IMG/VR virus record: IMGVR_UViG_3300025141_016448
Location: 1 to 21,536 of that record
Source: a virus
DNA: 21,536 nucleotides
Strand: one strand, 5' to 3'
Shown here: one piece after another, positions 1,288 to 19,064 of the stretch
How positions within the stretch are numbered: the stretch's first letter is position 1
Layout of the letters: each line of letters opens with the position of its first letter
The notes under the pieces: generated by a model
Database searches by the model: none
Told to the model about the DNA's origin: nothing
What the model saw: only the letters and a program-made list of their open reading frames with translations
Program-made: the position numbers and the translations under genes

Positions 1288-3411
1288 CTATATTTCACAT
1301 CCATCTGAATCACAGAATTTATTTGCATCAGCATTTTCTCCTTCTTCAGATAATAAGTTAAAGTTTAAAGGTTTTAGTGTTTTAGCATAAGCTTCAATTT
1401 CTTGTCTATCAGTAGTAATATATGGAGCTTGTTTATATCCATGGTCTGAAATTGGTAATAATGAAACACCTTTTAATCGAGAATCAAAACAAGAAAGTGC
1501 TCGTGCAATTTGATCGGCTTCATCCTGTTTAAACGTAATTGTAATAGAAACTTGGTTATCTGCCCAATAATGTTGCATATCTGCTGCATTTGCAAATTGT
1601 TCCCATATAGACACATTATGTTTTGATATAGTACCTTCAGCATGTATAACAGGAAAATATACTACTACTGTTCGTATTGGATCAGAAAGAGCAGGTTCTA
1701 TACGATATCCAGCTTTTTTTAATATATCAATCATAGGAGATATAGCAGATAATCTAACAGTACGATAGTATGATTCGTTTTCTGCGTAATGTATACCAGG
1801 TAATGCACCTGCAACTAAACTTACTGTTCCTGAAGGTTTAACAGAAGTTGTTTTACGAGATAGTGGAACACCCATCCATTCTGAATATTTTTGATCTATA
1901 TATTGGATATATGTATAAGCACGATCACAATATTCATCTAAGTACTTACGGCGACCAAATTTATTAATAGCTTCTTGGATACCAGATTGAGAACATCCAA
2001 TTCTACGATTACGTTTAATAACATCATTGGTATCTTGCCAATGTACAGCCATTAAAGTAACTGCTTTTGCATAAAGATATGCAAATTTTAGTGTACGTTG
2101 ATAATCCCAATAATCATTATGCTTAGTAGGAAAAGTTTCTACTAAACAACATAATTCATAAGATTCTAAAGATTGTTCAAGACAAGGATTTCCGCCTGCA
2201 ACTCGACGATCTTTCCAGTCAGCAGGATCTTTCATCCTACTATATTGTTGCATATTTTTTAGCCAAGCAAAGCCTGGTTCTCCAGAAATTGCAATAGATT
2301 TAGCGGCTTCTGTATAATTCATTCCAACTTCTGCAAAGATAGAATTATTAGAAGCCCAGCGCCAACCACCAAACTTATATGCCCAAGGTTTATCACTATA
2401 TTTTTTAGCAATTTCACTTCTTGAATCAAAGTCATTATTATATAAGTCATAGTCTTCTTGACTTATGAGATATAATTCTTCTGGCCCTATTGCTCCTGTT
2501 TCTACTCCTGCAGTTTCCCAATTCTTCATTTTCATAAATGCTATATCATTAGGAGTAGAAAAAGCAATTTCTGCGGTACGTCTAACATTGCCTGCAACTA
2601 CAATTTTACCAATAATATTCATAATATCAGTAATATCGACAGAATTTAATAATGGATTAGTAGATTTTGCTCTTTTAATAAGAATATCTTTAATTCCCAT
2701 AAGACCATGTTTTAATGGATCAGGACCAGATGCAACACCTCCAAAACCATTTATAGGTTTTCCATATGATCTAATCAATGAATAATCAAATGAGACAGGT
2801 GTAGAACCTTCCTCTAAATAAGAATCAATTAAACAAGATAATGCTTCTACCCAACCTTCTCTAGAATCATCAATATTAATAAGTTCTGGTGATCCTTCTG
2901 GTTCTATAGATGCAATTTTACCTGCACCTTTTGTATCAAATCCTACTCCTACACCTACCATACTCATATCCATTAAAAAAGCAAATGATTTTGATAGTTC
3001 TGCATCAATATCTTCAGTAGATACAAATGCACAATTATTTAAAGCTGCACCACCTTTTTCCCAGATGAAAGGTGTTCCCATCATCCATAATCCTCTACCT
3101 GGCGGCATCCATTTAAATTCAAAAAGACGTTCTGCTGCTTCTTCTGCTAATTTATGTGCTTTCTTTTCATTCCATGTAATATAGGATGCAATAGAATGAG
3201 TTTTTAAAATAGAAAAGAAACCTTCGACAACTCGAATTACACAGTCTGCCCATGTTTCCATTTTACCATTAGTTTTTTTACGAGAATATGTACGATAATA
3301 TGTAAATTCTGAAAGGCCACCATAGCCCCAGTTTACTATTTTATTCTTAAGTTTTTCTTTGAAATCTTTACGAAGTGTAAATTTAATTGGATTTTTGCCT
3401 GGTGCAAGCAT
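1288..3411 (-). CDS. nrdJ: class II (adenosylcobalamin-dependent) ribonucleoside-triphosphate reductase
   Basis: A 707-residue monomeric class II ribonucleotide reductase resembling the Lactobacillus leichmannii enzyme (about 739 aa). It reduces ribonucleoside triphosphates to dNTPs using a thiyl radical generated with adenosylcobalamin. Visible landmarks are MPPGRGLW (102-109), GAALNNCAF with redox C127, FLMDMSMVGVGVGFDT (145-160), the finger-loop NPCLEQSLE with thiyl C410 and catalytic E412, the redox partner C421 in YELCCLVE, PSGTVSLVAGALPGIHY, and the C-terminal swing-arm pair C700/C705 (CDSDGC) with the same 5-residue spacing as in the bacterial enzyme. All catalytic residues are present, so it should be active if the host supplies cobalamin. 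AAGGA lies 8 bases before the ATG. It heads the nrdJ-mazG-grx cluster. Confidence 0.95.
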   Translation of the reverse strand: MLAPGKNPIKFTLRKDFKEKLKNKIVNWGYGGLSEFTYYRTYSRKKTNGKMETWADCVIRVVEGFFSILKTHSIASYITWNEKKAHKLAEEAAERLFEFKWMPPGRGLWMMGTPFIWEKGGAALNNCAFVSTEDIDAELSKSFAFLMDMSMVGVGVGFDTKGAGKIASIEPEGSPELINIDDSREGWVEALSCLIDSYLEEGSTPVSFDYSLIRSYGKPINGFGGVASGPDPLKHGLMGIKDILIKRAKSTNPLLNSVDITDIMNIIGKIVVAGNVRRTAEIAFSTPNDIAFMKMKNWETAGVETGAIGPEELYLISQEDYDLYNNDFDSRSEIAKKYSDKPWAYKFGGWRWASNNSIFAEVGMNYTEAAKSIAISGEPGFAWLKNMQQYSRMKDPADWKDRRVAGGNPCLEQSLESYELCCLVETFPTKHNDYWDYQRTLKFAYLYAKAVTLMAVHWQDTNDVIKRNRRIGCSQSGIQEAINKFGRRKYLDEYCDRAYTYIQYIDQKYSEWMGVPLSRKTTSVKPSGTVSLVAGALPGIHYAENESYYRTVRLSAISPMIDILKKAGYRIEPALSDPIRTVVVYFPVIHAEGTISKHNVSIWEQFANAADMQHYWADNQVSITITFKQDEADQIARALSCFDSRLKGVSLLPISDHGYKQAPYITTDRQEIEAYAKTLKPLNFNLLSEEGENADANKFCDSDGCEI

Positions 3412-3441: not shown

Positions 3442-4080
3442 TCAGTTCGACTCATCGTTACTGAATAGAATTTTATTTAATTTAATAGCTAATAATAAAT
3501 TACCTCTATTGGATAAATGACAAGTACCTGCTAATTGATCATTTTCATTTGTCTTTTCTTTTTTAAAATATTTTTTCTCAGATTGATTAGGATGCCTTTT
3601 TAAAATATTATCTATATAATATTTAGATTTTGAAAATGTATATATTTCATGGTTTTTATTCCAAAAAAGATGTAGTACATTTTTTTCTTTTCTAGTAATA
3701 CTTTCAATAGCTGCAAAAGTTTTATAAAGATTTGTAGCTTTATCAGTAGTTCTATTTTTTCTCATAGGTTGTGTATGAAATATTATATAGTAATCGTACT
3801 GAGTTTTATTGTTAATTAATGTTTGTAAAATATCAAATTCACTACCGCCAACAACTCCCCATGTTTGAACTTCACTATTAGATAACATACCTAAATAAAA
3901 TAACCAAGAAGATTCGTGAGAAAATTCTTGATTTAAATGTTTTTCAGTATGATTACTAGAACTTGCTAAGTCAGCAAAACTATCTCCAAAAACTCCTATT
4001 ATTTTATTTTTATATTCATTTGTTATAGTATAAGGTAGAATATATTCACAACAGTTACATTCTATAGATTTTATTTTCAT
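3442..4080 (-). CDS. SGNH/GDSL-type hydrolase-like protein
   Basis: A 212-residue protein with an SGNH-hydrolase block pattern: block I GVFGDSFAD (nucleophile S34), block II-like WGVVGGSEFD (Gly about 78-79), block III-like YYIIFHTQPMR (about 98-107, where the usual Asn is not obvious), and a final CHLSNRGNLLLA with candidate catalytic H188. The acid normally three residues before the His is absent (G-T-C precedes it), so activity is uncertain. Family members are esterases, acyl or acetyl hydrolases, often acting on polysaccharides or lipids. The ATG overlaps the gp46 stop as ATGA, and 30 bases separate its stop from nrdJ. There is no signal peptide, so it probably acts in the cytoplasm or in the virion. 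The target is unknown. Confidence 0.6.
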   Translation of the reverse strand: MKIKSIECNCCEYILPYTITNEYKNKIIGVFGDSFADLASSSNHTEKHLNQEFSHESSWLFYLGMLSNSEVQTWGVVGGSEFDILQTLINNKTQYDYYIIFHTQPMRKNRTTDKATNLYKTFAAIESITRKEKNVLHLFWNKNHEIYTFSKSKYYIDNILKRHPNQSEKKYFKKEKTNENDQLAGTCHLSNRGNLLLAIKLNKILFSNDESN

Positions 4081-5924
4081 GTATGTATTGTACTAATATT
4101 ATCTTGTTTAGTAATAGATATTTTATCAATTAAAGGATGTGTAAAATCATGGGAAATAAGAAATACATTTAAATTTTTTTCTTCTGATAGTACTTCAATT
4201 AATTTTTCTTTTCCTTCATCATCTAACACACCTGTTATTTCATCAAGAAATAATAGATTTACGCTACTTCCACCTAATTTTGATAGGAGATTTCTAATTG
4301 CTAATAAAATAGCAGTTTGAATTCTGCTAAATTCTCCTCCAGATACAGTTTCAATAGGAGTGTCAATTCCGTTATTAGAGACAATTATATTTAGTTTTTC
4401 TTTATCTAATCTAAAACTTACTTGAAATTGACCATCTGATAATGACGATAAGTAAAAATTAATTGTTTCTTCAAGCTCTTTAGTTAAATTTTCAAGTTTA
4501 AAGGCAACAATTCCTGATGTACTAAATGCTTTTCTTAGAATAATTAAGTTGTTAAGTTTATTTGATAAGTTAATAATATCATTTTTAACATTAATTTGTC
4601 TACTTAAAAAATGTTCTTTTTGCTCTACTAGAGCGTCTGTTTTAGCATTATGAATACTTACTTTTTGATTATGATCAGTAGCATTTTGTATTTTTTCTGT
4701 ATTTGTTATAACTTGTTTTTGTGTTGAATGTAAATCATTTTGTAATTGACTATAATTAGGATGTTCTAATGATAATTCAATATCAATAAGTTGGGATAAT
4801 TGTTCAAATCTTTCTACTTTTTTCTGATTATCATTATATTTTTGCATATCCTCTTGATATGTGTCAACACGATCCTGAGCATATATTTTTTCTTCCGACC
4901 ATGATTCAATTTTTAATACTGTTTCTAATAAGTCTTTATCTAGATCATTATGTAATTGTTTAGATTGAGAATTATCTATTGTTTGACCACATGCATAACA
5001 AGTATCAGATATATCAATATTCATCAATGATTTTTCAATACTTTGTTTATGTAATTTTACTTTAGTTATTTCTTGATTTATGTTTTCTAAATCAGAAAAC
5101 ATATTAGGATCTGTAATCGGAATTTTCATTGACATATTAAATTTTAAAGTATCACGTTCTTTAATATAGAAATTATTTCTGTCTATTTTTTTACATGTTT
5201 GTTCATATTCTTTAACTTCTTTTTCAAGAAAAGCTAAACTTTTTAGTATATCTTCATCAAGTTTAGGAATTTCTATAAAATTAATTTTTTCTGGTATTTT
5301 AGTATGGTTTAAAAATGATTCAATAGTTTTGATTTCACCTTGTAATATAGCTAATTCTTTTTCAATATTACTTATTTTAACTTTTAAAACTTCTCCTATT
5401 TTAATATATTTTTCTAAATTAAATAAATTAATAAGAAATTTTTTTCGATTAGTATCAGTTGCTTTTAAAAATTCTAATAAATCAATAGAACTTTGATATG
5501 TAAGTTGAGAAAATATATTAAAGTCTAATCCTATTAATTCTTGAATAGTTTTATATGTATCAAGTATTTTATGTTCTGATATATCTAAAATATCAGAATT
5601 AAATTGTTGAATAAATTTTACATTACTTTTTATTCCTGTTCTTTCCACAGTTATACAAAAATTTTCTCTATCAATTGAAAATTCTAATTCAGCCCACCAA
5701 TTCTTAGATTTTGTCCATCTATTAAGAAGATCAGCTTTTTTTATTCCTTTTATGTTTTTATTAAATAGAACTTCTTGTAAAATTAACGCAATAGAAGATT
5801 TTCCACTCCCATTAGGAGCAGTTAATTGAGTAATTTTATCTTTATTAAATTTAATTATATTTTCTTGCTCACCATAAGAAAACATATTAGAAAATTTTAA
5901 TGTATTAAGTACTATCTTTGACAT
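4077..5924 (-). CDS. 46: recombination endonuclease subunit gp46 / SbcC-like ATPase
   Basis: A 615-residue SMC/Rad50-type ATPase. Walker A is APNGSGKSS (about 36-44), a long coiled-coil region follows, the zinc-hook motif CYAC is at 309-312, a second coiled coil comes next, then the ABC signature SGGEFSR (528-534), Walker B NLLFLDE (556-562) and the D-loop GVLDDEG. The length is near that of T4 gp46. With gp47 it forms the complex that resects DNA ends for recombination-dependent replication. Its start overlaps the upstream PP-loop gene by 20 bases, with AGGA 8 bases before the ATG. All catalytic motifs are intact. The unusual point is that its partner gp47 is not directly adjacent, because the PP-loop gene lies between them. 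Confidence 0.93.
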   Translation of the reverse strand: MSKIVLNTLKFSNMFSYGEQENIIKFNKDKITQLTAPNGSGKSSIALILQEVLFNKNIKGIKKADLLNRWTKSKNWWAELEFSIDRENFCITVERTGIKSNVKFIQQFNSDILDISEHKILDTYKTIQELIGLDFNIFSQLTYQSSIDLLEFLKATDTNRKKFLINLFNLEKYIKIGEVLKVKISNIEKELAILQGEIKTIESFLNHTKIPEKINFIEIPKLDEDILKSLAFLEKEVKEYEQTCKKIDRNNFYIKERDTLKFNMSMKIPITDPNMFSDLENINQEITKVKLHKQSIEKSLMNIDISDTCYACGQTIDNSQSKQLHNDLDKDLLETVLKIESWSEEKIYAQDRVDTYQEDMQKYNDNQKKVERFEQLSQLIDIELSLEHPNYSQLQNDLHSTQKQVITNTEKIQNATDHNQKVSIHNAKTDALVEQKEHFLSRQINVKNDIINLSNKLNNLIILRKAFSTSGIVAFKLENLTKELEETINFYLSSLSDGQFQVSFRLDKEKLNIIVSNNGIDTPIETVSGGEFSRIQTAILLAIRNLLSKLGGSSVNLLFLDEITGVLDDEGKEKLIEVLSEEKNLNVFLISHDFTHPLIDKISITKQDNISTIHT

Positions 5925-6879
5925 ATTCTAATCCTGTTAATAATTTATATTCTAACCAATCTTCGGATAGTTTTGTATTCTCAAAGTGTTTATCTAAGTT
6001 ATCTTCTAGCCTCTTTTTATATCTTAATGTACTACTTCTCCAAGTTAAAAATGTTTGATAAGCATATCTACATTCCTTACGCAATATATTTTCAGCAGTA
6101 TTCATTTCCTTTAAACTTTTTTCCCATCCGGTGTATTTAATTCTATGAGTTAAGTTATCATATGACTCATATAGGAAACTATTATCTTTTTCTCCTGGTT
6201 GAGAAGAATCATAATTTTTAGTATAATGACAAAAAATAGGTTCTAAACTAGTAAAAGTCATAAATTTTTTCTTTGTATTAATTGCATATTTTATATAATT
6301 TGGACTATCTTCCCACCATCCAAAACCTAGATTAGGATAAAAATCAGGATTATGACCACTATTAATAAGTATCTCATTATCTTCAATAAAATCAAATAAA
6401 TATGTTAATGCTACTTGACTGATTGAATGAGTAAATTGACCGTATTTTACTGCTTTTGGGATTAAATTTTTTATTATTTTATTATAAGATAGAGGAATAA
6501 ATTTTTGATTTATTCCTCTATCTTTACAATATTTAGCCGCATATATTAAATCAAAATCATTTTGACCTTTAAAAAGTCTTAAACTTAAAACTCTAAAGGG
6601 AATATTTAATTGATAAAAAGTTTCTGCACATACTTCACTATCAATACCACCACTCATACCTAAAACAAATTTATAGTTTTTATATTTATCAGCAAAATCT
6701 CGTACTAGAGAAAAATAATCATCTCTAATAGATTTTCCATGATTTTTATAAGGTGGAGCAGAAATATATGATCCTAAACTTGGAATCTTGACATGGCAAT
6801 AATAATTTTTAGTAGGACGCATGAAAGTATTTGTTTGACTATATTTCCAATACGTTCTATTTATAGAAAGATCATACAT
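5905..6879 (-). CDS. PP-loop (N-type ATP pyrophosphatase) family protein
   Basis: A 324-residue protein with the PP-loop signature FVLGMSGGIDSEVC (71-84; SGGIDS at 76-81), as in asparagine synthetase, GMP synthetase, QueC and tRNA-thiolation enzymes. It is followed by FRVLSLRLF, like the second strand of that fold, and NSGHNPDFYPN later. These enzymes adenylate a carbonyl or carboxylate and release pyrophosphate. The C-terminal third is basic and aromatic and I cannot assign it. No glutamine amidotransferase domain and no CxxC thiolation motif is obvious, and no queuosine genes (queD/E, folE) are in view, so the substrate is unknown. Its start overlaps gp47 by 8 bases and its end overlaps gp46 by 20, so it is made together with the recombination nuclease. 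Nucleotide or tRNA modification is possible. Confidence 0.8.
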   Translation of the reverse strand: MYDLSINRTYWKYSQTNTFMRPTKNYYCHVKIPSLGSYISAPPYKNHGKSIRDDYFSLVRDFADKYKNYKFVLGMSGGIDSEVCAETFYQLNIPFRVLSLRLFKGQNDFDLIYAAKYCKDRGINQKFIPLSYNKIIKNLIPKAVKYGQFTHSISQVALTYLFDFIEDNEILINSGHNPDFYPNLGFGWWEDSPNYIKYAINTKKKFMTFTSLEPIFCHYTKNYDSSQPGEKDNSFLYESYDNLTHRIKYTGWEKSLKEMNTAENILRKECRYAYQTFLTWRSSTLRYKKRLEDNLDKHFENTKLSEDWLEYKLLTGLEYVKDST

Positions 6880-7843
6880 TTATACCTAAATCTCTATACT
6901 CACTTAAAATTTCTTTTGTATTTTTAATTTTAACAAAATTTAGATAAAGCTCAAGTTCTTCAATTAATGTTTTATTTTTTAAATCTAATTTTGAATTTTC
7001 TATAGGCTGCGTAGCAATTTTTTTATCTATTAATTCTGAGTTTTTAATTTTAGATAGTTCATCTATAGAACCTATTATTTCATAAATAACATGATTAATA
7101 TTATCTTTTTCTATATTATCACCAACATTAATTGTTTTTCTTAATAATTTAGGTAATTTTAAATCTTTAAATTCAACTTTATAGTCAAAATTTTGAGACG
7201 TAATTAAAGTAATAATATTTACACCATATTCTCTAGTAGGATTACGATCAAAAGTTACATTAAGAGGACTACCAGGATAATAAGCTGGATAATCCAAGTA
7301 TTTATGAGCAAAATGAAGATCACCGAGTAAAATAAGGTTCCAGGGACGAAGTTTCTCGAAATCATACTCTGGTGTGATATGAGGCGGTACTTCACCTCGA
7401 ATATGGGTGACCAAAATGTCTTTTTCATGTTTTTTAGTTGGTAAATTATCAATCTGCATTTCTCCATATGGAAAAAATTGGAAAAATGCACTGCCTTCTT
7501 GCACACGTTTATTTTTAGTAATAAGATGTACGTTTAAATTTGTAATCGCATTTTCTAAAGTAAAGTGCTCAAGAAATGTTTCTCCTTTTTTAGTTGCTTC
7601 ATGATTACCTGGTATAATATATGTTGGTATATTAACAGAATTTATATAAGATAAAAATAAACATACTTCATCTGGTTCTGGTTTTTTATCAAATATATCA
7701 CCTGCTATAATATGTACATCACAATCTTGTTCTAAAGCAACTAGTTTTTTAAAAAAAGTTTTAAATCTATTTATTTGCCATTTATAAGGAACTTTCTTTT
7801 TATGAAGAAGAATATGCCAATCTGCTGAATGTAAAATTTTCAT
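6872..7843 (-). CDS. 47: recombination endonuclease subunit gp47 / SbcD-Mre11-like nuclease
   Basis: A 323-residue calcineurin-like metallophosphoesterase. Motifs in order: MKILHSADWHI (metal ligands D8 and H10), IIAGDIFD (D49), IIPGNHEA (N80-H81), ILVTHIRGE (H147) and LGDLHFAH (about 173-180, a GHxH-like motif). It is the nuclease partner of the gp46/SbcC ATPase and processes DNA ends for recombination and replication restart; phages also use such complexes to help degrade host DNA. The length matches T4 gp47 (339 aa). It begins 1 base after the stop of the small membrane-protein gene and its end overlaps the PP-loop gene by 8 bases. The second half, after about residue 200, is Lys/Ile-rich and matches the variable capping region. 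Confidence 0.92.
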   Translation of the reverse strand: MKILHSADWHILLHKKKVPYKWQINRFKTFFKKLVALEQDCDVHIIAGDIFDKKPEPDEVCLFLSYINSVNIPTYIIPGNHEATKKGETFLEHFTLENAITNLNVHLITKNKRVQEGSAFFQFFPYGEMQIDNLPTKKHEKDILVTHIRGEVPPHITPEYDFEKLRPWNLILLGDLHFAHKYLDYPAYYPGSPLNVTFDRNPTREYGVNIITLITSQNFDYKVEFKDLKLPKLLRKTINVGDNIEKDNINHVIYEIIGSIDELSKIKNSELIDKKIATQPIENSKLDLKNKTLIEELELYLNFVKIKNTKEILSEYRDLGINV

Positions 7844-7844
7844 T

Positions 7845-7976
7845 TTATAAAAGTACCACCAAATAAATTAAGCCCAAAAAGATACCTAAAACCCACATTG
7901 CACATTTTTCTTCAATTCCTATTGAACCATGTTTTTTAGCTTCTTTCCAAACCTCATCCCAATCTATTTTTTTCAT
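7845..7976 (-). CDS. 43-aa single-span membrane protein coupled to amt
   Basis: I choose the ATG at 7974-7976, which forms an ATGA overlap with the amt stop (7973-7975). The longer frame reaching 8048 would lie within amt. The product has a charged amphipathic N-terminus (MKKIDWDEVWKEAKKHGSIG), then EEKC and a C-terminal hydrophobic stretch AMWVLGIFLGLIYLVVLL, consistent with one transmembrane helix ending at the C-terminus. It stops 1 base before gp47 begins. No family is recognised. Tight coupling to amt suggests co-production and possibly a membrane partner of the transporter, but that is inference. An unrelated small phage membrane protein is equally possible. Confidence 0.65.
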   Translation of the reverse strand: MKKIDWDEVWKEAKKHGSIGIEEKCAMWVLGIFLGLIYLVVLL

Positions 7977-9160
7977 TTTCTTCTTTTGATAAGAGTTTGC
8001 AATCCATCTTCCATGAACTCTGGATATGCACTTCCTGTCCCTTCCCACATATCAGAACCACTAAGTTCTTCTTCTTCACCTACACGAATACCTATTGTTT
8101 TATGTAGTATCCACCAAGTAGCAATAGAGGTTATGAATACAAACGAACCAATAACTACTATACCTTCTACTTGAGCTTGTAGAGTTGCATCTGAATTAAA
8201 GATAGGAACTAACAGTAGTCCAATTATACCAGCAACACCATGAACAGAAATTGCACCTACAGGATCATCAATACCCATTTTTTCAAATAGACTCATTGCG
8301 TAGGGGATTATTGCACCACCTAATGCACCATATAACACCGCCATCTCTGGACTTGGAGTATAAGGATCAGCAGTAATAACTACTAATCCTGCTAATGCTC
8401 CATTCAATGTCACATTAAGAATAGCTTTCTTTGTCCATATTTTAGATACAATCATTGCTGCTAGTAATCCACCTGCTGCAGCCATGTTAGTATTAACGAA
8501 TATTTTACCAACTGCTTTGGCATCATCAATTGTAGAAAATGCTAATTGGGAACCACCATTGAAAAAGAACCATCCTAACCATAGAATTAAAGTTCCTAAT
8601 GCAACTAGAGGCATATTGGAGCCGGGAATGTTTTGTGGTATACCATTCTCATCATATTTTCCTTGTCGAGGCCCTATCATAATAACAGATGCAAGAGCTG
8701 CAATTGCTCCGGCCATATGAACAATACCAGAACCAGCAAAATCAGAAAATCCTCGTTCGCTAAGAAAGCCACCACCCCATGTCCATAAACCTTCTAATGG
8801 ATATATGACTGCTGTAAACACTGCGGCGAATATTAAAAACGACCATAGTTTCTTTCTCTCTGCAACAGCACCAGATACTACAGACATTGCAGTAGCGACA
8901 AATACCATTTGAAAAAAGAAATCTGCATACATGGAATGTGTTTCTGGTTCATTCCATCCATACATCATACCATAACCAGCAAATAAAAATGCGATAGATG
9001 CCACCGAAAATAGTGCGACATTTTTAGTTAAAATTTCTGTTACATTTTTTGTTCTAATTGACCCTGCTTCAAGAGCAGTAAATCCGGCGGCCATCCACAT
9101 AACCATTGCACCAGATATAACAAAAAATATTGTATTCATTGCGTAACTTAATTCATTCAT
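7973..9160 (-). CDS. amt: Amt/MEP-family ammonium transporter
   Basis: A 395-residue polytopic membrane protein with about 11 hydrophobic spans, the usual Amt length after signal removal. Conserved residues can be matched to E. coli AmtB: W128 in LWTWGGG, D140 in SDFAGSGIVH (D160 in E. coli), and the twin pore histidines H148 and H307 (in AISVHGVAGIIG; E. coli H168 and H318). The family conducts ammonium across the inner membrane. The cytoplasmic C-terminus, normally ending in a GLD...HGE.AY-like motif, here reads SGSDMWEGTGSAYPEF, so GlnK control may be altered. The gene is visibly less AT-rich than its neighbours. It is intact and coupled on both sides by ATGA overlaps, which argues against a fragment or an assembly artefact. 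It is probably an auxiliary metabolic gene acquired from a host. Confidence 0.95.
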   Translation of the reverse strand: MNELSYAMNTIFFVISGAMVMWMAAGFTALEAGSIRTKNVTEILTKNVALFSVASIAFLFAGYGMMYGWNEPETHSMYADFFFQMVFVATAMSVVSGAVAERKKLWSFLIFAAVFTAVIYPLEGLWTWGGGFLSERGFSDFAGSGIVHMAGAIAALASVIMIGPRQGKYDENGIPQNIPGSNMPLVALGTLILWLGWFFFNGGSQLAFSTIDDAKAVGKIFVNTNMAAAGGLLAAMIVSKIWTKKAILNVTLNGALAGLVVITADPYTPSPEMAVLYGALGGAIIPYAMSLFEKMGIDDPVGAISVHGVAGIIGLLLVPIFNSDATLQAQVEGIVVIGSFVFITSIATWWILHKTIGIRVGEEEELSGSDMWEGTGSAYPEFMEDGLQTLIKRRK

Positions 9161-9870
9161 TTTATCATATATCCTGTTCGTATATCATTTAGATGTCCAT
9201 CCGCATCATATTTAAATGAATCTGGATGATAATTATTTTTAAATTTATAACCTTGTTCTTTCAATTCTTTAATTTTATATTCTTCATTTTTCCATATAGG
9301 AATTGCAACTGTACCTATTTGCTTATTATGTAAAATATCATTACCTGTTCTTAAATGTATTTCAATAATTTTATTTCCAATTAATTCTATATTTAAAAAA
9401 TCTATATCTATTATTTTATTTAAAAATGCTGGAAGTTTGATTTTAGGAGATTTTACACACTTCCATTTTGTAAATTTAGTAAGATTTTTTTCTGAATGTT
9501 CTCCTATCATCGCATGAAAAGATTCCCATCTAAATAGAGAATCTTTAGAAGCATTTGTAGCTTTATAATCTATAGAGTAATGAGTTCCTTCAAAGTATTC
9601 ACACCAAAAATATCCAGGAGGAATATGTCCATGATGAATAATAAAGTCATTATCAATTTCAGGAATAAATGTACATACTTTTGCACCTATTCCCATTCCA
9701 TATAAATTATATATAGGTCTTATAATAACTTTATAATGATTTAATGTAGAGGGTAAAGGAGTACAGGCAGGACCTGCTCGATAACCAAGCTTGAGAGCAA
9801 TCTCTAATTTATTAAAAACCCATCTATATTGAGGATACAGCTCCCAAGCTTGATAATCTTCATCTATCAT
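9157..9870 (-). CDS. putative ATP-grasp-like protein
   Basis: A 237-residue protein. By eye it has an ATP-grasp-like order of elements: KVIIRPIYNLYGMGIGAKV (47-65; basic residue, Pro and a glycine-rich loop), WCEYFEGTHYSIDY (89-102; resembling the E-x-x-x-G-x-x-x-S-x-D segment), and IDFLNIELIGNKIIEIHLRTG (156-176; resembling the strand ending in E-x-N-x-R, here E170-I-H-L-R). If correct, it would use ATP to join a carboxylate to an amine or thiol. The Asn metal ligand is His here and the N-terminal domain is short, so it may be divergent or inactive. It sits between a glycosyltransferase-like gene and amt with 4-base overlaps on both sides. The assignment is tentative; otherwise treat it as a conserved phage hypothetical. 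Confidence 0.5.
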   Translation of the reverse strand: MIDEDYQAWELYPQYRWVFNKLEIALKLGYRAGPACTPLPSTLNHYKVIIRPIYNLYGMGIGAKVCTFIPEIDNDFIIHHGHIPPGYFWCEYFEGTHYSIDYKATNASKDSLFRWESFHAMIGEHSEKNLTKFTKWKCVKSPKIKLPAFLNKIIDIDFLNIELIGNKIIEIHLRTGNDILHNKQIGTVAIPIWKNEEYKIKELKEQGYKFKNNYHPDSFKYDADGHLNDIRTGYMIK

Positions 9871-10694
9871 GTATGAGAATCTACCATTCCTATAACTTGG
9901 CTTAAATCACCTTCGAATGTATAAGTTCCAACATGGTTAAGTTTAGTATTAGGATCTAACCAAATCTCTCCTCCAAGTTTTTGCCATCTTCGGCAAAATG
10001 TATAATCTTCTGATAAATAACGATTATCATCTGGATCTTGAATTGTATCAAAAAATGAATAACAATATTTATTAAATTTAGTATCAATATTACTATCATT
10101 TCTATAATGTAATTCTGGATATGCTTCTCTCATTTTATCAAATACTCTGCGTTTAACACAAAAATATCCGGTTGATGCATCTAATACTTCAACAGCTCCA
10201 TTTTCTACTTTTATCTGTTTTTTCTCAGGATCACTAAATTTAAAATTAATAGCATACTGAATAGGAAGAGCTTTTTTTGGATAAGCTGCTGCTAAAATAT
10301 CTTTATCATATGCTAATGCTCGTAAAATACCATCAACATCAAATTCTATATCTGCATCTATAAAAAATAGATGTGATGCTGTACTTTCCATAAACATAGC
10401 TGCTAGTATATTTCTAGCTCGTGTTACCAAACTCTCATTTCTTAGAGTTGTAACACGGAAAGATATACCATGAGACATAAGAGCTTGGCTTAATTTAAAC
10501 ATCGAAAGAAAATATTGATCAGTAACTACTCCTCCATAACAAGGAGTAGCAAAAAATACTTCATAACCTCTCAATTTTTCTAGATCGATTTTAGCTACTT
10601 CACCTGCTACGTCTGTAAAAGCTCCAAAACTACGAGGAGCAGTAGGATCTACAGGCTCAGGAGATCCTACTAAATCTTTAAGGGACTTTTTCAT
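9867..10694 (-). CDS. glycosyltransferase-like protein (GT-A fold)
   Basis: A 275-residue protein. After a short Pro-rich leader comes YEVFFATPCYGGVVTDQYF (44-62), a Rossmann-like start of a GT-A domain, then RARNILAAMFM and the metal/nucleotide-sugar motif LFFIDADIEF (D113-x-D115). STGYFCVKR follows, and SEDYTFCRRWQKLGGEIWLD (228-247) resembles the acceptor/catalytic ED-containing region of family-2-like enzymes. It would transfer a sugar from a nucleotide sugar; the acceptor (DNA base, virion protein or surface glycan) is unknown. It overlaps the SSB stop and the ATP-grasp-like start by 4 bases each. It shares no obvious sequence blocks with the two tandem transferases near 13.1-14.7 kb, so it has a separate origin. 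Confidence 0.75.
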   Translation of the reverse strand: MKKSLKDLVGSPEPVDPTAPRSFGAFTDVAGEVAKIDLEKLRGYEVFFATPCYGGVVTDQYFLSMFKLSQALMSHGISFRVTTLRNESLVTRARNILAAMFMESTASHLFFIDADIEFDVDGILRALAYDKDILAAAYPKKALPIQYAINFKFSDPEKKQIKVENGAVEVLDASTGYFCVKRRVFDKMREAYPELHYRNDSNIDTKFNKYCYSFFDTIQDPDDNRYLSEDYTFCRRWQKLGGEIWLDPNTKLNHVGTYTFEGDLSQVIGMVDSHT

Positions 10695-11344
10695 GCTAAA
10701 TCGTCAATTTCTTCAGTAGCTTTAAACTCATCACTGACATCACCAGCAAAAAAGGCTGTATTTTGCATTAACCATTCTTTTTGCTCATCGTAAGTTTGAC
10801 GTTTATAAATACGATTTAAATCAAATAATTCTAATTTTAATTCGTCCTCAGTTAATTCCGTACTAGCTCTAGCAGGAATAGTAGTATATTTTACATTTTG
10901 AGGAAGGGGTCCAGTTTTTTCTTTTTTAACTGTAATATCATATCCAGTTTTTGGATCTGATGGATTTCCATATTCAGGATTAGACGCGTAGTCTACGATT
11001 TGACTATATATAGTTGATCGTAAATCAAATAATTTAATTTGTCCATCTGTTCGATCAATTACATTACATACATAAGAAAATTGAGGTTTATCTGAATATA
11101 CAGCTTCATCAATATCTTTAAATGGGTTAGATGCAGAATTATCGAAACTTTCTGTTTCTCTACTAAATTCTAAGCATTCTACAGGCATTTTTCTACCTTC
11201 TGTAGTTGTTACCCAATAACAATAACGGGGTAATACATCTCCAATTAGTCGAAGTTTATTATCCCCAATATTCATAGTCATTCGTTGAATTTCTCTACGT
11301 TGACCACTATTTTGTTTTCCTTTTGCTTTATCCCAAGCAACCAT
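10691..11344 (-). CDS. ssb: phage single-stranded DNA-binding protein
   Basis: A 217-residue phage ssDNA-binding protein. It begins with a basic segment (MVAWDKAKGKQNSGQRREIQ), has PRYCYWVTTTEGRKMPVECL (39-58), then DGQIKLFDLR, NPSDPKTGYDITVKKEKTG and PLPQNVKYTTIPAR, a pattern I associate with an OB-fold SSB family of marine and vibrio phages that is functionally like T4 gp32. The C-terminus is acidic (DVSDEFKATEEIDDLA), as is usual for SSBs that recruit partner proteins. The T4 gp32 zinc ligands are not evident. It has the strongest ribosome site in the window (AAGGAGGA, 4 bases before the ATG), in line with the high copy number such a protein needs. The stop overlaps the next gene as ATGA. 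Confidence 0.8.
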   Translation of the reverse strand: MVAWDKAKGKQNSGQRREIQRMTMNIGDNKLRLIGDVLPRYCYWVTTTEGRKMPVECLEFSRETESFDNSASNPFKDIDEAVYSDKPQFSYVCNVIDRTDGQIKLFDLRSTIYSQIVDYASNPEYGNPSDPKTGYDITVKKEKTGPLPQNVKYTTIPARASTELTEDELKLELFDLNRIYKRQTYDEQKEWLMQNTAFFAGDVSDEFKATEEIDDLA

Positions 11345-11376: not shown

Positions 11377-11829
11377 TTAGGATTTATTCTCTGAAACCAG
11401 AGACTCATATCTAAAGTATATATAATTTTCATCATATGTTAAAAATGGATTTTCCATTTCTAAATCTGTTAAATATGCTCTAGGAATATAATTACATTTT
11501 TCTGATATTCTTCGCATACTTAAAATTTTAATATAATTAACTTTTAGTTTAGCATTTACATTATATGTTAAAATTTTTGGATTAAGCATATAACTTTGTT
11601 TTTCTTTACTTCTATAATTACAATAAATTTTTCCTTTTATAGAATCTAAAGTTCCTTGTTGAAATAGAAATGCAGGAATATGATTTATATGAAGTAATTC
11701 TAAAAGTGATTTTCCTTGCCATGTTATAAATTCATTATAGCTTTTTGTTTGGGCATAAGTCAAGATAACAATTGCAGCAGGATCGCCTCTTGCTATACGA
11801 TAGATTTCATACCAATTAAAGTATATAAT
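11377..11829 (-). CDS. hypothetical protein, probable non-AUG (ATT) start
   Basis: A protein-like frame of up to 150 residues. The first conventional start is TTG at 11761-11763, but the frame is open and clearly coding-like upstream (YFNWYEIYRIARGDPAAIVI) back to a TAG at 11851-11853. There is no ATG, GTG or TTG in that upstream stretch. AGGAG at 11838-11842 is 8 bases before an ATT codon at 11827-11829, which I take as the best start. Starting at TTG gives 128 residues with no ribosome site. The gene overlaps the uvsW stop by 14 bases. An alternative is a +1 ribosomal frameshift from uvsW at CTT TAA. The product is Tyr/Asn/Lys-rich with no recognised domain and ends NPFLTYDENYIYFRYESL. Confidence 0.65.
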   Translation of the reverse strand: MIYFNWYEIYRIARGDPAAIVILTYAQTKSYNEFITWQGKSLLELLHINHIPAFLFQQGTLDSIKGKIYCNYRSKEKQSYMLNPKILTYNVNAKLKVNYIKILSMRRISEKCNYIPRAYLTDLEMENPFLTYDENYIYFRYESLVSENKS

Positions 11830-13102
11830 AACTTCTACTCCTGTACCATTCTAATCTTTTTGTTTGTTGTCTATGTACAATTGGTCCAGATAACCAAAAA
11901 TCTATAATTAAAGGAAGTTGTTTATCATCGTGTTCACGAATGATTCTACCAATCCGCTGTTCCAGCTTAATAGGATTGTTATTAGGGCAAGTAAGAAACA
12001 ATGTATCCAACCGATGACAACTAATACCTTCATCAAAGAGCTTCGTTGATAAGACAACTTTATATTTTCCTCCGACATTAGAAAGAACATCTTTTCTAGT
12101 TGATTCATCTGTTTCTCCTATTAAACATACACTATTTGGAATTAATTGTTGAATATCTTTTAACATTTGTACTCTCTCACCTAATATAAGAGGACAACGA
12201 TTATTTGCAATCATTTGAATTGCTGTTTTTGCGATAAGTTTGTGGTAATTAGTATTACCACAAAGTTTATTTAATTGTCGAGACCAATCTCGTTTAGGAT
12301 CAATTACTGGAAATCTAAAATCTGTTTGTATAATTTTTACAGAAGGATCATTTAATTTTCTAGGATCACGAGCAGATACAAGAAAAGGAGAAAAATAATC
12401 AGATAAATACACATGTTTTCCATCTTTTCTTTTTGGTGTTGCTGTAATTCCAATTTTAATTTTAGCATTTAAGTTATTAAGAGTAGTAGAAAATAAATCA
12501 GCAGGACAAAGATGAGCCTCATCAACAATAATCATTGAAAATGATTCTCTAAGCTGTGACAAATTATTATATACACTTTTATATATACCTACTGTTATAT
12601 CTTCAACTTGTAAAAAACCATCGCCAATTTTACCTATTTTTATATTAGGAATTTGATGTTCTAATTCTTCAATCCATTGTCTAAATAAAAGTTTAGTATG
12701 AACCATAATAAGAGTTTTTATATTATTTCTAGCAATAATATTACAACCAGTATACGTTTTTCCCCATCCACAAGGTGCTTGTATTATTCCACTCCTTGCA
12801 CGACCTTTTTGAAAAAATTTATCTACTAATTCTTGTTGTTCCCATCGTAGCTCACCAGAAAATACCATTTCTGTATTAGCTTCTTCGTATTTTCTATTAT
12901 CTATAACTTCTTGCCACTCTAATTTGTGGTATCCATTACTTGGAACAACAAAATATAAATCATCTTCTCCTAATGTAGATAAAATTTCATCACCATTATC
13001 GTATGTAAAAAGACTAATTAAATTATTAGAGTCTTCTACATCTTCTTTTTTAATATATATTTTATCAGAGATATATATTGTTTTTACATTAGCTTTTTTC
13101 AT
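11816..13102 (-). CDS. uvsW: UvsW-like DNA helicase (superfamily 2)
   Basis: A 428-residue SF2 helicase. Motifs: Q-like RWEQQELV (87-94), Walker A APCGWGKT (109-116), motif Ia-like IMVHTKLLFRQW, DEAH box IIVDEAH (191-197), motif III ITATPKR (219-225), motif V LSTKLFDEGIS and motif VI QRIGRIIRE. The C-terminus KRLEWYRSRSYYIL resembles the end of phage UvsW proteins, so the protein is full length. UvsW unwinds branched DNA and R-loops and drives the switch from origin- to recombination-dependent replication, consistent with gp46/47 elsewhere in the operon. The ATG overlaps the stop of the upstream transferase gene (ATGA). The last codons, CTT TAA, create a possible +1 shift site into the next frame. 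Confidence 0.9.
   Translation of the reverse strand: MKKANVKTIYISDKIYIKKEDVEDSNNLISLFTYDNGDEILSTLGEDDLYFVVPSNGYHKLEWQEVIDNRKYEEANTEMVFSGELRWEQQELVDKFFQKGRARSGIIQAPCGWGKTYTGCNIIARNNIKTLIMVHTKLLFRQWIEELEHQIPNIKIGKIGDGFLQVEDITVGIYKSVYNNLSQLRESFSMIIVDEAHLCPADLFSTTLNNLNAKIKIGITATPKRKDGKHVYLSDYFSPFLVSARDPRKLNDPSVKIIQTDFRFPVIDPKRDWSRQLNKLCGNTNYHKLIAKTAIQMIANNRCPLILGERVQMLKDIQQLIPNSVCLIGETDESTRKDVLSNVGGKYKVVLSTKLFDEGISCHRLDTLFLTCPNNNPIKLEQRIGRIIREHDDKQLPLIIDFWLSGPIVHRQQTKRLEWYRSRSYYIL
11838..11842 (-). promoter_or_regulatory. ribosome binding site supporting an ATT start
   Basis: AGGAG on the minus strand, inside the end of uvsW, 8 bases before an in-frame ATT and 11 before an ATA of the downstream hypothetical gene. 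No AUG, GUG or UUG lies at a usable distance in that frame, so this site decides the proposed start. Confidence 0.5.
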
Positions 13103-14690: not shown

Positions 14691-15184
14691 AATCGTTCAT
14701 AATTTCTTTTTACGGGTTCCATAGTAAATTCTTTTAAAAACCATTCATTATTTATATAAATTACTCTACCATAAAGTATATCATCTATAACTAAAACTTG
14801 ATTAGTATTTATTTTAAAAGGATATGCAATTTTTTCTAACCATACTAAATTATCTTTTATTTTTATTATTTTTTTATTCTCAGCAGGAAAAGTGTTTTTC
14901 ATAGTAAGATCATGAATAATTGCGTTTTTATCTAATCCCCATACTACTTTAGAAATAAGACATTCTTGTACATTTTTACAAGTTATATTAAAGTTTCCTC
15001 GTTTATTTAATTGCATTAAACGAGCAAAATAATCACCTTTTAATTTTTTATCATCAAGAGTTTCAAATTGAGAAAATCGTTTACGTCTAATTTGAATTTT
15101 ATTAAATGTAATACTAACTTCATACGGTTTTACTAGTAATCCAAAGAAAGGAAAAGCTATTCTTGAAAATTTATTTGTACTCAT
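14687..15184 (-). CDS. hypothetical protein (165 aa) downstream of polA
   Basis: 165 residues, basic and rich in Lys, Ile, Asn and Phe. The N-terminal half has FPFFGLLVKPYEVSITFNKI and RRKRFSQFETLDDKKLKGDY, suggesting a small beta-rich domain with a positive patch. The C-terminal half (VWLEKIAYPFKINTNQVLVI, LYGRVIYINNEWFLKEF) also looks beta-rich. I recognise no family. It starts 14 bases inside the end of the polymerase gene, after a GGGGTGA-like ribosome site, and its end overlaps the transferase gene as ATGA. Position next to the polymerase hints at a replication accessory role, but nothing in the sequence proves that. Confidence 0.7.
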   Translation of the reverse strand: MSTNKFSRIAFPFFGLLVKPYEVSITFNKIQIRRKRFSQFETLDDKKLKGDYFARLMQLNKRGNFNITCKNVQECLISKVVWGLDKNAIIHDLTMKNTFPAENKKIIKIKDNLVWLEKIAYPFKINTNQVLVIDDILYGRVIYINNEWFLKEFTMEPVKRNYERL

Positions 15185-17429
15185 TTAATTCACCCCAACT
15201 TGAACCAATTTCAAAATCTACTTTTATTGGACAATTAGGGATTGATAAACCACGATCTTTTTGAATACAACGTCTTGCATTTTCAATATAAACATCAATT
15301 AAATTTTCTCTTACTTCACTAACAATTGAATCATGAACTACAGTAAAAGTTAAAATATCATCTTCATAACGATTATCTTGTACCCAATTAATAAGATCAA
15401 TAACACCAAGTAAATTAATATCTGAAGCAACACTTTGAATTAAGAAATTAACACCAGATCTAATTGCATGAGAGGCAACTCCTTTATTTGGAGATTTAGA
15501 TTCTGGTAAACGGCGTTTTCTACCGAAATGAGAATAAATAAAAGCATTATTTTCAATGTATTTATTAGAATCATCAATAAATTTTTTCAATGCTTTAGCC
15601 TCTCTAAAATATTTATTAATAAATTGAGAAGATTGTGCTCTAGTAATTTCTTCACCTGCAGCAGCATCTTTATTAACTGTTTCTGCAATTTTTGCTGGAC
15701 CTGCCTGATACATTATACCAAATGTAATAGCTTTTGCATATTGTCGTTCATTTGGGTAATATTTTTTAACATCTGATACTTCGCAAACTAAATTAAACAT
15801 TTGTTTTGCTACATAAGAATGAAAATCAAGTTTATCAATAAATGCTTGTTGAAGAAAAGAATCATTACTTAAAATAGCTGCGTAATAAACTTCTGCTGTT
15901 CCTAAATCACATTGAACAATTTTATACCCATCCCGTGCTTTAAATAATTTTTTAATATCTTTATTATCTCGTGGAATATTTTGATAGTTTAGATTACCAG
16001 AACTTGATAAACGACCAGAAGTAGTTCCTTGAATATTAAAACCGCTTCTTAATCTACCATCATTATCTATACCATTTACAATATTAGAAATATATGTTCC
16101 AGATAATTTAGATTTTTCACGCAAATCTAATACAGCTTGAGCAAGAGGATGATTTAAAGTTTGTAATACTTCTTTATCTACACTTAATGCTCCTGTTGCT
16201 GTTTTCTTTTTAGATTTTAATCCAATAATTTCAAAGAATAACTTTCGTAATTGCATTGTACTATTTGGATTGAAAGTTTTATTGTTAATTCTTTCAAATC
16301 TCTGTACATGAGGACTGTAACTAATTTCCTCAATACATTCTTCAATATCAATTTTATATTCTTTATCTAGTTTTTCTAACTGCTCTAAATCAATTGGACC
16401 GCCAGTTCTCTCTAATATTTTAAGAGCTTTTGTAGCTGGTTTAAGAATTGTATTATATAGAGAATTAAATTCTTTACTTTTATCTACTAAAGGTTTAAAT
16501 TTATTATAAAGTTGAAATGTTGCATCACCATCTTTACAAGCATAGGGTGCTAAGATTTCCATAGGAAGCATTCCATAATTAAAATCTGCTAATTTAATCT
16601 TATTTTTTCTAGCGAATGTTTTTTTATAATCATCTAATTCTTTTTCGTAATCGCCTAAATCAGTAAAACGTAATGCTAAAGCTTTTAATCCATGTGTTCC
16701 TACTGCTTCCTCTAAACAATAATGAAGAAGCATTGTATCTTCCCAACGATCAAATACAAATCCTAGAGAATCTTCTAAAAATTGCATATCAAATTTTGCA
16801 TTATGAAATACACATCGTTTATTAGCAAAAAGATCAAAGAAATAATCAAAGTTATTAGTTATAACTTCTAAAGATATGAAATGCCCTTGATGTTCTCTTG
16901 ATGATATTGCGATCCCAATAACAACACCTTTTCTCGGACTAAGAGATGTTGTTTCAATATCAACTACAATAGTATCAACATTATCATAATCAGAATAAAC
17001 TTTTATAAGTTGATCCTGAGTTTCAATAAATTGATAATCTTTTTCTATATTTTTACCTATATTTTGATCACTTAATATTGGTTTAATTTTAGAAAAAGCA
17101 GAAATAATATCATCATTTAATTGAGGTTTAAATATTGTCATATTAGGATGCATTATAGGAAGATATTTTTTCTCTATAAAAACTCCATTATATTTTTGTA
17201 CTCCTGTATATCCTGCAGTATATTTAAGACTTTCTGCGCCAATAGGACAAATAAGTTTATAACTATCTAATTCTTTCATATCTAAATCAATATCTTTTTT
17301 GAGTATTTTTTCTTTTTTATTAGAACATAGATATTTAATATCAAATGCAATTTCTGAAAAATATTTTTTTATTGTTTTAGATGGTTCTTTTTCTGCCGTA
17401 CTTGCAAATACAAAACAAACATCAGACAT
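15171..17429 (-). CDS. polA: DNA polymerase, family A (3'-5' exonuclease plus polymerase)
   Basis: 752 residues from an ATG at 17427-17429. A GTG seven codons upstream is less likely because AAAGGA lies 6 bases before the ATG. There is no 5'-3' nuclease domain. Exonuclease motifs: VVDIETTSL (D157, E159), FHNAKFD (D214) and YACKDGDATF (about 296-305). Polymerase: TTSGRLSSS.GNLNYQNIP, motif A IVQCDLGTAE (D508), motif B RQYAKAITFGIMYQAG (K566, F570, the position of E. coli F762), motif C VVHDSIVSEV (D700). It is the replicative polymerase of the phage. Motif A departs from the usual D-x-S-Q-x-E, and motif C has HDS where HDE is common. The catalytic aspartates are kept, so activity is expected. 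It overlaps the oxygenase gene by 8 bases. Confidence 0.95.
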   Translation of the reverse strand: MSDVCFVFASTAEKEPSKTIKKYFSEIAFDIKYLCSNKKEKILKKDIDLDMKELDSYKLICPIGAESLKYTAGYTGVQKYNGVFIEKKYLPIMHPNMTIFKPQLNDDIISAFSKIKPILSDQNIGKNIEKDYQFIETQDQLIKVYSDYDNVDTIVVDIETTSLSPRKGVVIGIAISSREHQGHFISLEVITNNFDYFFDLFANKRCVFHNAKFDMQFLEDSLGFVFDRWEDTMLLHYCLEEAVGTHGLKALALRFTDLGDYEKELDDYKKTFARKNKIKLADFNYGMLPMEILAPYACKDGDATFQLYNKFKPLVDKSKEFNSLYNTILKPATKALKILERTGGPIDLEQLEKLDKEYKIDIEECIEEISYSPHVQRFERINNKTFNPNSTMQLRKLFFEIIGLKSKKKTATGALSVDKEVLQTLNHPLAQAVLDLREKSKLSGTYISNIVNGIDNDGRLRSGFNIQGTTSGRLSSSGNLNYQNIPRDNKDIKKLFKARDGYKIVQCDLGTAEVYYAAILSNDSFLQQAFIDKLDFHSYVAKQMFNLVCEVSDVKKYYPNERQYAKAITFGIMYQAGPAKIAETVNKDAAAGEEITRAQSSQFINKYFREAKALKKFIDDSNKYIENNAFIYSHFGRKRRLPESKSPNKGVASHAIRSGVNFLIQSVASDINLLGVIDLINWVQDNRYEDDILTFTVVHDSIVSEVRENLIDVYIENARRCIQKDRGLSIPNCPIKVDFEIGSSWGELNEYK

Positions 17430-18210
17430 TAGTTGTCCTTTCTTGAACACTAGTTTTTAATTTTACAGAACTTGGTATAGGATTTCTAATATAATCATCG
17501 TCCCATACAATATTTATATTCCAAGCAATAGTTCTTCTTTCACCTTCACCTATAAATGGATATACAAGATGATCTAACCATATAGGAAATATATAAAATA
17601 CTCCGGGTTCTGGTACAATAAAATCACATTGAGGATATTTAAATGTAGGAATATCTCTTCCAGAAACTGTGCCCCAATGTAATGCTGTTATACCATCCAT
17701 AAGACCTTTTGCACCATGCAAATCTTCTTGTTCTATTTTTTTACCTTTTATTTGGTCCGGTACTTTTAAATGTATAAAACCAGCTAAAGCAGACCAATAT
17801 TCACTACCATGATCATGTAAAGGATTATAATCTGATTCATATTGATGAACTGTCCATACATCATTAAGCTCTAAATGATATGGACTAGGTTGTTTATTTA
17901 CTGCTTGATAAAAATGATGTACATATATATTAGTTGAATCTTTTAATAATTTTTTAAAAGGCCAAAAACGTGGTTCATCTACATCAATTTTAAGTTGTTT
18001 ACCTTTTTTAATTTCACCTACTAATTGACTCTGATATGTTTTTGAATTTTCATCTGCTTGTAGTTCATCACAATATTCATTTAATTGTGTAACCATTGAT
18101 TCTGGTATTTTACCTGATCCTACATTAAGTGCAGGATGCTGTTTAATATCGAAATGTACATCTTTAGATTGTGGTACAGCTTCTCTATTATTTTCTACTG
18201 TCTCTGTCAT
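17422..18210 (-). CDS. 2-oxoglutarate/Fe(II) oxygenase-like protein
   Basis: A 262-residue protein resembling the putative 2OG-Fe(II) oxygenases common in marine phages. The likely iron site is in NPLHDHGSEYWSALAGFIHL (H132 and H134), with the distal H214 in FYIFPIWLDHLVYPF and the 2-oxoglutarate-binding arginine in GEGERRTIAWNI (R225/R226). The spacing of jelly-roll elements (EPGVFYIFP before the distal His) fits the fold. Enzymes of this kind hydroxylate a substrate using O2, Fe(II) and 2-oxoglutarate. The substrate is unknown: protein, nucleobase and small molecule are all possible. It sits between primase and polymerase, overlapping primase by ATGA and polA by 8 bases. The N-terminus (MTETVENNREAVPQSKD) is probably flexible. 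Confidence 0.8.
   Translation of the reverse strand: MTETVENNREAVPQSKDVHFDIKQHPALNVGSGKIPESMVTQLNEYCDELQADENSKTYQSQLVGEIKKGKQLKIDVDEPRFWPFKKLLKDSTNIYVHHFYQAVNKQPSPYHLELNDVWTVHQYESDYNPLHDHGSEYWSALAGFIHLKVPDQIKGKKIEQEDLHGAKGLMDGITALHWGTVSGRDIPTFKYPQCDFIVPEPGVFYIFPIWLDHLVYPFIGEGERRTIAWNINIVWDDDYIRNPIPSSVKLKTSVQERTTNV
17436..17441 (-). promoter_or_regulatory. ribosome binding site deciding the polA start
   Basis: AAAGGA lies 6 bases before the ATG at 17427-17429. The longer frame that starts with GTG at 17448-17450 would place this site inside the gene, so I prefer the ATG. Confidence 0.7.
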
Positions 18211-19064
18211 TTTAATACCTCTTTTATTTCATTTAATGTAATTTCTCCAGGATCTTTACCTGTTGGAACTTTGATTATTCTTGAATAAATATTTCTAGTA
18301 TCTAATAATTTTGCAATTTTTTCAGATGCGATTTGACCAGCAATATCAGGATCCATCATTATATCAACTCTTGTTGTTCCAATTCTATCTAATATATCTA
18401 GTTTATTTTTATTAAAATTAGAAGCACCAAATAAACATACTGTGTTTTTATAACCAAGTTGCCACATATTAAGCATATCAAATATTCCTTCAACAAAAAT
18501 TAAATAGTTTGTATTTTTTATTTTGTCTAATGGAAATAGTATATTAGATATTTTAGCTTTAGTTGGTTTACGATAATATTTAGATTGTAAATTTTTTTCT
18601 ACTATTTTTCTGCCTTCAATAAATTTAAGTTTACCAAATTGATATACAGGTATGCAAATATAATTTTGTAGTTGAAGCTGCTGAGTTGTAAATGCTTCAA
18701 ATTCTTTCATTGTAATACCATTAATTCCTTTAAAGTCTGCATTATACATCAAACGTTCATTTGGAATTTGTATTTCATCTATTTCAATAATTTGTTTTAT
18801 TTTATTTCTTAATTTTTGTATTTTATAAGGTTGTTTACTTTCAATAGGTAAACGAGTTATTTCTCCTATACTTTCTAAAAATTTTGATGATCCACCTCCA
18901 AAACTACAACTCCAACAATGAAATAAATTTTTATCTAAATTATAACTAAGGCTTGGGCTTTTATCTTCATGTAAGCCAGATGTACAAGAAATAAGAATTT
19001 CTGATGGATTATTAGTTTTTTTGTATTGTATTCCTTTTTTATTGAGTAATTCAATTAATTCCAT
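18207..19064 (-). CDS. DNA primase (zinc finger plus TOPRIM, gp61/DnaG-like)
   Basis: A 285-residue compact primase. The N-terminal zinc-binding domain has C27, H32 (SCTSGLHEDKSPSLSY) and C50-x-x-C53 (FHCWSC), the CHC2-type pattern. The TOPRIM domain has FVEGIFDML (E192) and IMMDPDIAG (D238-x-D240), followed by KDPGEI, which is typical of the primase metal-binding core. It makes RNA primers for lagging-strand synthesis, probably with a separate helicase that is not in this window. The length is close to T4 gp61 (342 aa). It begins 12 bases after the stop of the FecR/RTX gene, with AAAGAGAT in that gap as a ribosome site, and ends with an ATGA overlap to the oxygenase gene. Confidence 0.9.
   Translation of the reverse strand: MELIELLNKKGIQYKKTNNPSEILISCTSGLHEDKSPSLSYNLDKNLFHCWSCSFGGGSSKFLESIGEITRLPIESKQPYKIQKLRNKIKQIIEIDEIQIPNERLMYNADFKGINGITMKEFEAFTTQQLQLQNYICIPVYQFGKLKFIEGRKIVEKNLQSKYYRKPTKAKISNILFPLDKIKNTNYLIFVEGIFDMLNMWQLGYKNTVCLFGASNFNKNKLDILDRIGTTRVDIMMDPDIAGQIASEKIAKLLDTRNIYSRIIKVPTGKDPGEITLNEIKEVLK

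Follow-up and report, generated by a model that had tools for sequence, protein, structure and literature searches.

An intact ammonium transporter gene in a T5-like phage seems to have moved between unrelated phages

The window analyzed here is an entire viral IMG/VR record of 21,536 bases. It contains an ammonium transporter gene (amt) among genes for phage replication and recombination (Table 1). Along the transcript, the order is primase, 2OG-oxygenase, polymerase, a 165-aa gene, two inserted genes and the D10 helicase, followed by a 128-aa ORF, the D11 single-strand DNA-binding protein (SSB), two more genes, amt, the small ORF tm43, D12, the PP-loop gene and D13. The position of amt is between D11 and D12.

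Table 1. Genes and features of the 21,536-base window
Feature	Position	Strand	Remark
Ribonucleotide reductase (B12-dependent type)	1288..3411	(-)	downstream of D block
D13/gp46/SbcC-like subunit	4077..5924	(-)	
PP-loop protein	5905..6879	(-)	weak NAD-synthase match; between D12 and D13
D12/gp47/SbcD-like nuclease subunit	6872..7843	(-)	right flank of insertion site
tm43, 43-codon ORF	7845..7976	(-)	probable single membrane span; no Pfam match
amt, Amt/TIGR03644 ammonium transporter	7973..9160	(-)	395 aa, ATG start
p237 (phrog_3577)	9157..9870	(-)	upstream of insertion; overlaps D12 directly in 8 relatives
275-aa gene (phrog_1574, unknown function)	9867..10694	(-)	present in relatives too
D11-type single-strand DNA-binding protein (gp32-like)	10691..11344	(-)	
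D10-type helicase (UvsW-like)	11816..13102	(-)	
DNA polymerase, family A	15171..17450	(-)	42% to T5 polymerase
DNA primase	18207..19064	(-)	T5 pri position

The order pri-pol-D10-D11-D12-D13 is that of phage T5 (AY543070), in which the same core is present minus most of the inserted genes of the window, and the homologous proteins are 26-42% identical. By this replication and recombination block, the backbone is T5-like (Demerecviridae-like); no structural gene was identified within the window. An earlier note on this DNA had recognized phage-type genes around amt, and this holds, but its label gp46/47 does not: these are the T5-type D13/D12 rather than T4 genes. The PP-loop gene (5905-6879, minus strand) is retained in many relatives and is absent from T5. 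Also absent from T5 are two tandem, mutually similar genes (274 and 256 aa; 13099-14690, minus strand) that lie between the 165-aa gene and the D10 helicase; neither Pfam nor PHROG gave a match for them. A gene at the contig end (19077-21527, minus strand) encodes an 816-aa protein that has RTX calcium-binding repeats and, at its C terminus, a serralysin-type match; the GC3 of this gene is high (0.226) and it has no PHROG match.

In a profile search, the amt product matches PF00909 over residues 12-378 (E 1.9e-91; 307 bits, cut-off 23.2). It scores 533.2 bits against TIGR03644, the "marine subtype" of probable ammonium transporter (marine_trans_1), for which the curated cut-off is 514. Alignment to E. 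coli AmtB (mature numbering, in brackets) places F107 (F87), W148 (W128), D160 (D140), H168 (H148), W212 (W197), F215 (F200), S219 (S204) and H318 (H307) at equivalent positions. The twin histidines, the tryptophan and serine of the selectivity filter, the phenylalanine gate and Asp160 are all present. The earlier note was right about the four residues it had listed (H148, H307, D140 and W128), and its estimate of about 11 membrane spans agrees with the 11 long helices of an AlphaFold2 model (pLDDT 83.6). This model was made from an input of 38 sequences; an input of 17 viral sequences gave a pLDDT of 53 and was set aside. The TM-score of the model is 0.90 to 6eu6, the best PDB match, and 0.85 to AmtB (2ns1). 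A search of predicted viral structures gave no match. Purifying selection acts on viral amt: among its copies, dN/dS has a median of 0.10 and a maximum of 0.23 (440 viral pairs with dS 0.05-1.5).

Both ends of amt overlap the neighboring genes by ATGA, as had been described before: the start with p237 (9157-9160) and the end with tm43 (7973-7976). Together, amt and tm43 fill exactly the gap between p237 and D12. In eight relatives (L253-L260, D12 79-82% identical) amt is absent and the p237 homologue overlaps D12 directly; therefore, amt and the 43-codon ORF are an insertion, tm43 having entered together with amt. A tm43-like ORF, 49% identical to that of the window, also follows amt in another viral locus (L003). 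The GC3 of amt and tm43 is 0.21-0.25 (amt 0.21), compared to 0.08-0.13 in the D-block and most other window genes; other exceptions are a glutaredoxin gene (0.19) and the RTX gene (0.23). Two further relatives (L047 and L059) have amt at the same place, and both contigs end within it. L047 has amt and L253 lacks it, despite 97% identity between their SSB genes, which indicates that the gain or loss of amt was recent. Another relative, L264, has a different gene at the D11-D12 site (4882-5371), so the site accepts other genes too. The linkage of amt to the phage genes is found again in a second assembly (L002) identical to the window and, on the upstream side, in the diverged L047 and L059; the downstream junction of the occupied site is represented by one sequence, in two assemblies (the window and L002). 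We thereby confirm amt as a real, intact, phage-borne gene.

A 10-bp direct repeat, ATAAAATGAA, is present at the insert ends (the p237/amt and tm43/D12 junctions). As a sign of a mechanism of insertion or excision it is weak evidence, as 5 of 171 pairs of window gene starts match equally well. In L003 (3798-5130), amt is flanked by a 13-bp direct repeat, AAAATAGATTGGA, and about 1 in 1000 random pairs of sequence windows is as good. This repeat may be a trace of insertion beside the tm43-like gene.

Two viral scans identified about 105 distinct viral loci that encode relatives of this Amt, in about 31 different pairs of neighboring genes. Neighbors include genes for T4-type gp23, tail tube, UvsY, UvsW-like, late sigma, DnaB-like helicase and PhoH proteins. 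Near-identical amt genes (90-96% DNA identity) occur in unrelated viral backbones. The window and L003 share 94.8% DNA identity from the ATG (0) to 73 bp past the stop codon, and the window and L005 share 90.1% from the ATG (0) to 5 bp past the stop codon; in both cases the flanks are unrelated. For L009 and L010, the identity is 95.8%, from -11 to +9. In loci with similar amt and different neighbors, similarity mostly begins about 0-60 bp from the ATG and stops near the stop codon. L005 carries its own major head (gp23), tail tube, UvsY, UvsW-like and late sigma genes, and is considered T4-like because of these proteins. As a cassette of almost exactly one ORF, the gene seems to have moved among T5-like, T4-like and other phages that are unrelated to each other, by a putative recombination process.

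Other genes lie beside amt in some viruses. In a 213-kb viral contig (L183, 8001-10252), a gene for a PstS-like phosphate-binding protein directly follows amt, and genes for nitrogen and phosphorus uptake adjoin. A GroEL-like gene, judged by eye, is just downstream of a viral amt in L150 (3950-5596).

Phage metabolic genes are usually read as captures from the host. Each phage could have taken amt separately from its own host, with phage-to-phage transfer minor, and this usual reading speaks for such a history, which we regard as unlikely here. Published viral glnK-amtB pairs have been interpreted as the outcome of two or more captures, with Bacteroidetes and Gammaproteobacteria as the sources (PMC8115048). 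In a 127-row Amt tree, 49 distinct, full-length viral sequences form one group (99% support; stem 0.74 changes per site), and a single cellular sequence (L069) is nested inside it, as separate capture would allow; with a smaller tree, the AU test does not reject a clade made up of viral sequences alone (p 0.48). Against separate capture, the viral Amts group together across the many gene contexts, and the highly similar DNA in unrelated phages stops at the gene boundary. Moreover, cellular Amts among the matches listed are no closer than 67% (L069); those of other gammaproteobacteria are about 52-63% identical, and those from an order with genomes of about 1.2 Mb are 46-51% identical, again among the matches listed. 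Closer bacterial donors than these may exist. L069 is a gammaproteobacterium-like chromosomal contig (with a TonB receptor and aceE) in a MAG labelled Dehalococcoidia, in which it is probably misbinned. A search of the INPHARED phages found no close relative of the window Amt, with matches at most about 40% identical, and several of these matches look like host contamination.

We somewhat favor a phage-dedicated Amt lineage, long kept by marine phages without a P-II regulator, that would travel between T5-like and T4-like phages as a gene-exact cassette. In that case, phages with presumably shared hosts would use one common gene for nitrogen uptake instead of acquiring it anew from each host.

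The window Amt passes the TIGR03644 cut-off, and the bacterial members of this family have the same pore residues and tail motif. They differ in that they are mostly beside glnK, whereas viral members have no glnK neighbor, and in the loop between TM2 and TM3, which has 26-45 residues in most bacterial members and 14-15 in viral ones (between window positions 67 and 80). A P-II gene (glnK) is within 800 bp of amt in 104 of the 116 cellular loci with enough upstream DNA. No P-II match was found near amt in any viral locus examined, the window included, or in 16 whole viral records, among them ones of 130 and 213 kb. The earlier note had proposed that an unusual C-terminal tail frees the transporter from host PII. 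We reject this, as the tail (GIRVxEEEExGxD...AYPEF) is common to bacterial, glnK-linked TIGR03644 Amts, and the AmtB residues R384, E390, G393, D395, A403 and Y404 are all present. The window Amt thus has the conserved C-terminal tail of GlnK-regulated Amts, and because it matches its glnK-linked relatives and AmtB, the ability to bind host GlnK may well be retained in the phage protein. One consistent change in viral Amts is the loss of a cysteine shortly before AYPEF. With regard to regulation, the sequences support one statement: the phages appear not to carry the P-II regulator.

The phage protein could be an ammonium sensor or a non-conducting Amt that alters host nitrogen signaling rather than uptake, although we consider this improbable. 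Its best sequence and structure matches are the ammonium sensors or receptors Ks-Amt5 (6eu6) and Sd-Amt1 (8qj3), the closest solved structures, at 34-36% identity. None of the canonical residues is missing from Ks-Amt5, including those of the filter, the Phe gate and the His pair, and still this protein does not translocate ammonium (PMC5764959). The claim in the earlier note that twin histidines, aspartate and tryptophan make the protein look functional goes too far for this reason; its description of an intact Amt in a phage operon stands, given the ORF, the selection and the linkage. E31, N47 and F27 are common to Ks-Amt5 and the phage Amt. However, the Ks-Amt5 cation site is present only in part, with Q24, E31, N47, D50, T51, T109 and T112 corresponding to A, E, N, L, F, S and S, and L and S take the place of the pore plugs Y30 and F34. 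The kinase fused to Ks-Amt5 has no counterpart, as the phage protein ends after the tail without any signaling domain. Relatives in bacteria that match the phage protein at nearly all these positions adjoin glnK, like assimilatory transporters, and this linkage points to assimilation. Transport is thus the best reading of the function of the phage Amt.

The deviating GC3 of amt could suggest a chimeric contig or bacterial contamination, but we find this extremely improbable and largely refuted by the four-base overlaps on both sides, the identical second assembly, the upstream junction shared with two diverged relatives and the matching empty site in eight others, which bear out the earlier view that physical linkage to phage genes makes contamination unlikely.

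As a host-type metabolic gene in a phage genome and under purifying selection, amt is an auxiliary metabolic gene. Its role in ammonium uptake, also proposed in the earlier note, is supported as the simplest reading of an intact, selected Amt physically linked to phage genes. Overall, it is likely that the amt product works as an ammonium transporter of the marine TIGR03644 type, that a marine T5-like phage carries the gene and expresses it with the replication block to raise ammonium uptake, and that amt descends from a bacterial glnK-amt pair, lost glnK and passed between unrelated phages. We stop at "likely" because the nearest structures are sensors, while the sensor residues are mostly absent and the cellular relatives are linked to glnK. 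The phage would express amt along with its replication genes during infection, and the infected cell, presumably an ocean bacterium, would gain additional ammonium from which to make nucleotides and proteins, to the benefit of the phage. We infer that the source was a bacterial glnK-amt pair, probably gammaproteobacterial, from which glnK would have been left behind as amt entered a viral lineage that may now circulate mainly among phages.

Phage Amt as such is already published. Marine oxygen minimum zone phages, one of them T4-like, carry glnK-amtB pairs (Gazitua et al., PMC8115048). These are phage-borne Amts in marine phages, as here, but glnK directly precedes amtB, whereas the window has no P-II gene, a T5-like backbone and an exchangeable single-ORF cassette. 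At Station ALOHA, a bacteriophage-encoded, bacterial-like Amt was proposed to aid ammonium acquisition (PMC7174320); the portion of that report considered here gives no backbone, insertion site or phage-to-phage transfer, and its Amts may well include relatives of the window amt. Amt genes are also published from algal and giant viruses (PMC9083009). For an Ostreococcus tauri virus, expression and ammonium transport are reported (Monier et al. 2017, as cited in PMC9083009); by that description, this is a virus-encoded transporter like that of the window, but from a eukaryotic virus. In the open-access literature, we found no T5-like amt carrier, gene-exact exchange between phage groups, empty site or P-II-free viral Amt group. 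The T5-like carrier and the gene-exact traffic between phage groups appear to be new.

Two cautions follow from this locus: phage metabolic genes should not be read simply as host captures, and pore residues alone should not be taken as proof of Amt function. In the sea, nitrogen is often in short supply, and phages have a high demand for it. The passage of a transporter gene between unrelated phages, cut exactly at its ends, points to strong, repeated selection for ammonium uptake in infection. Phages with and without amt at the same site are natural pairs for a direct test of the benefit of the gene.
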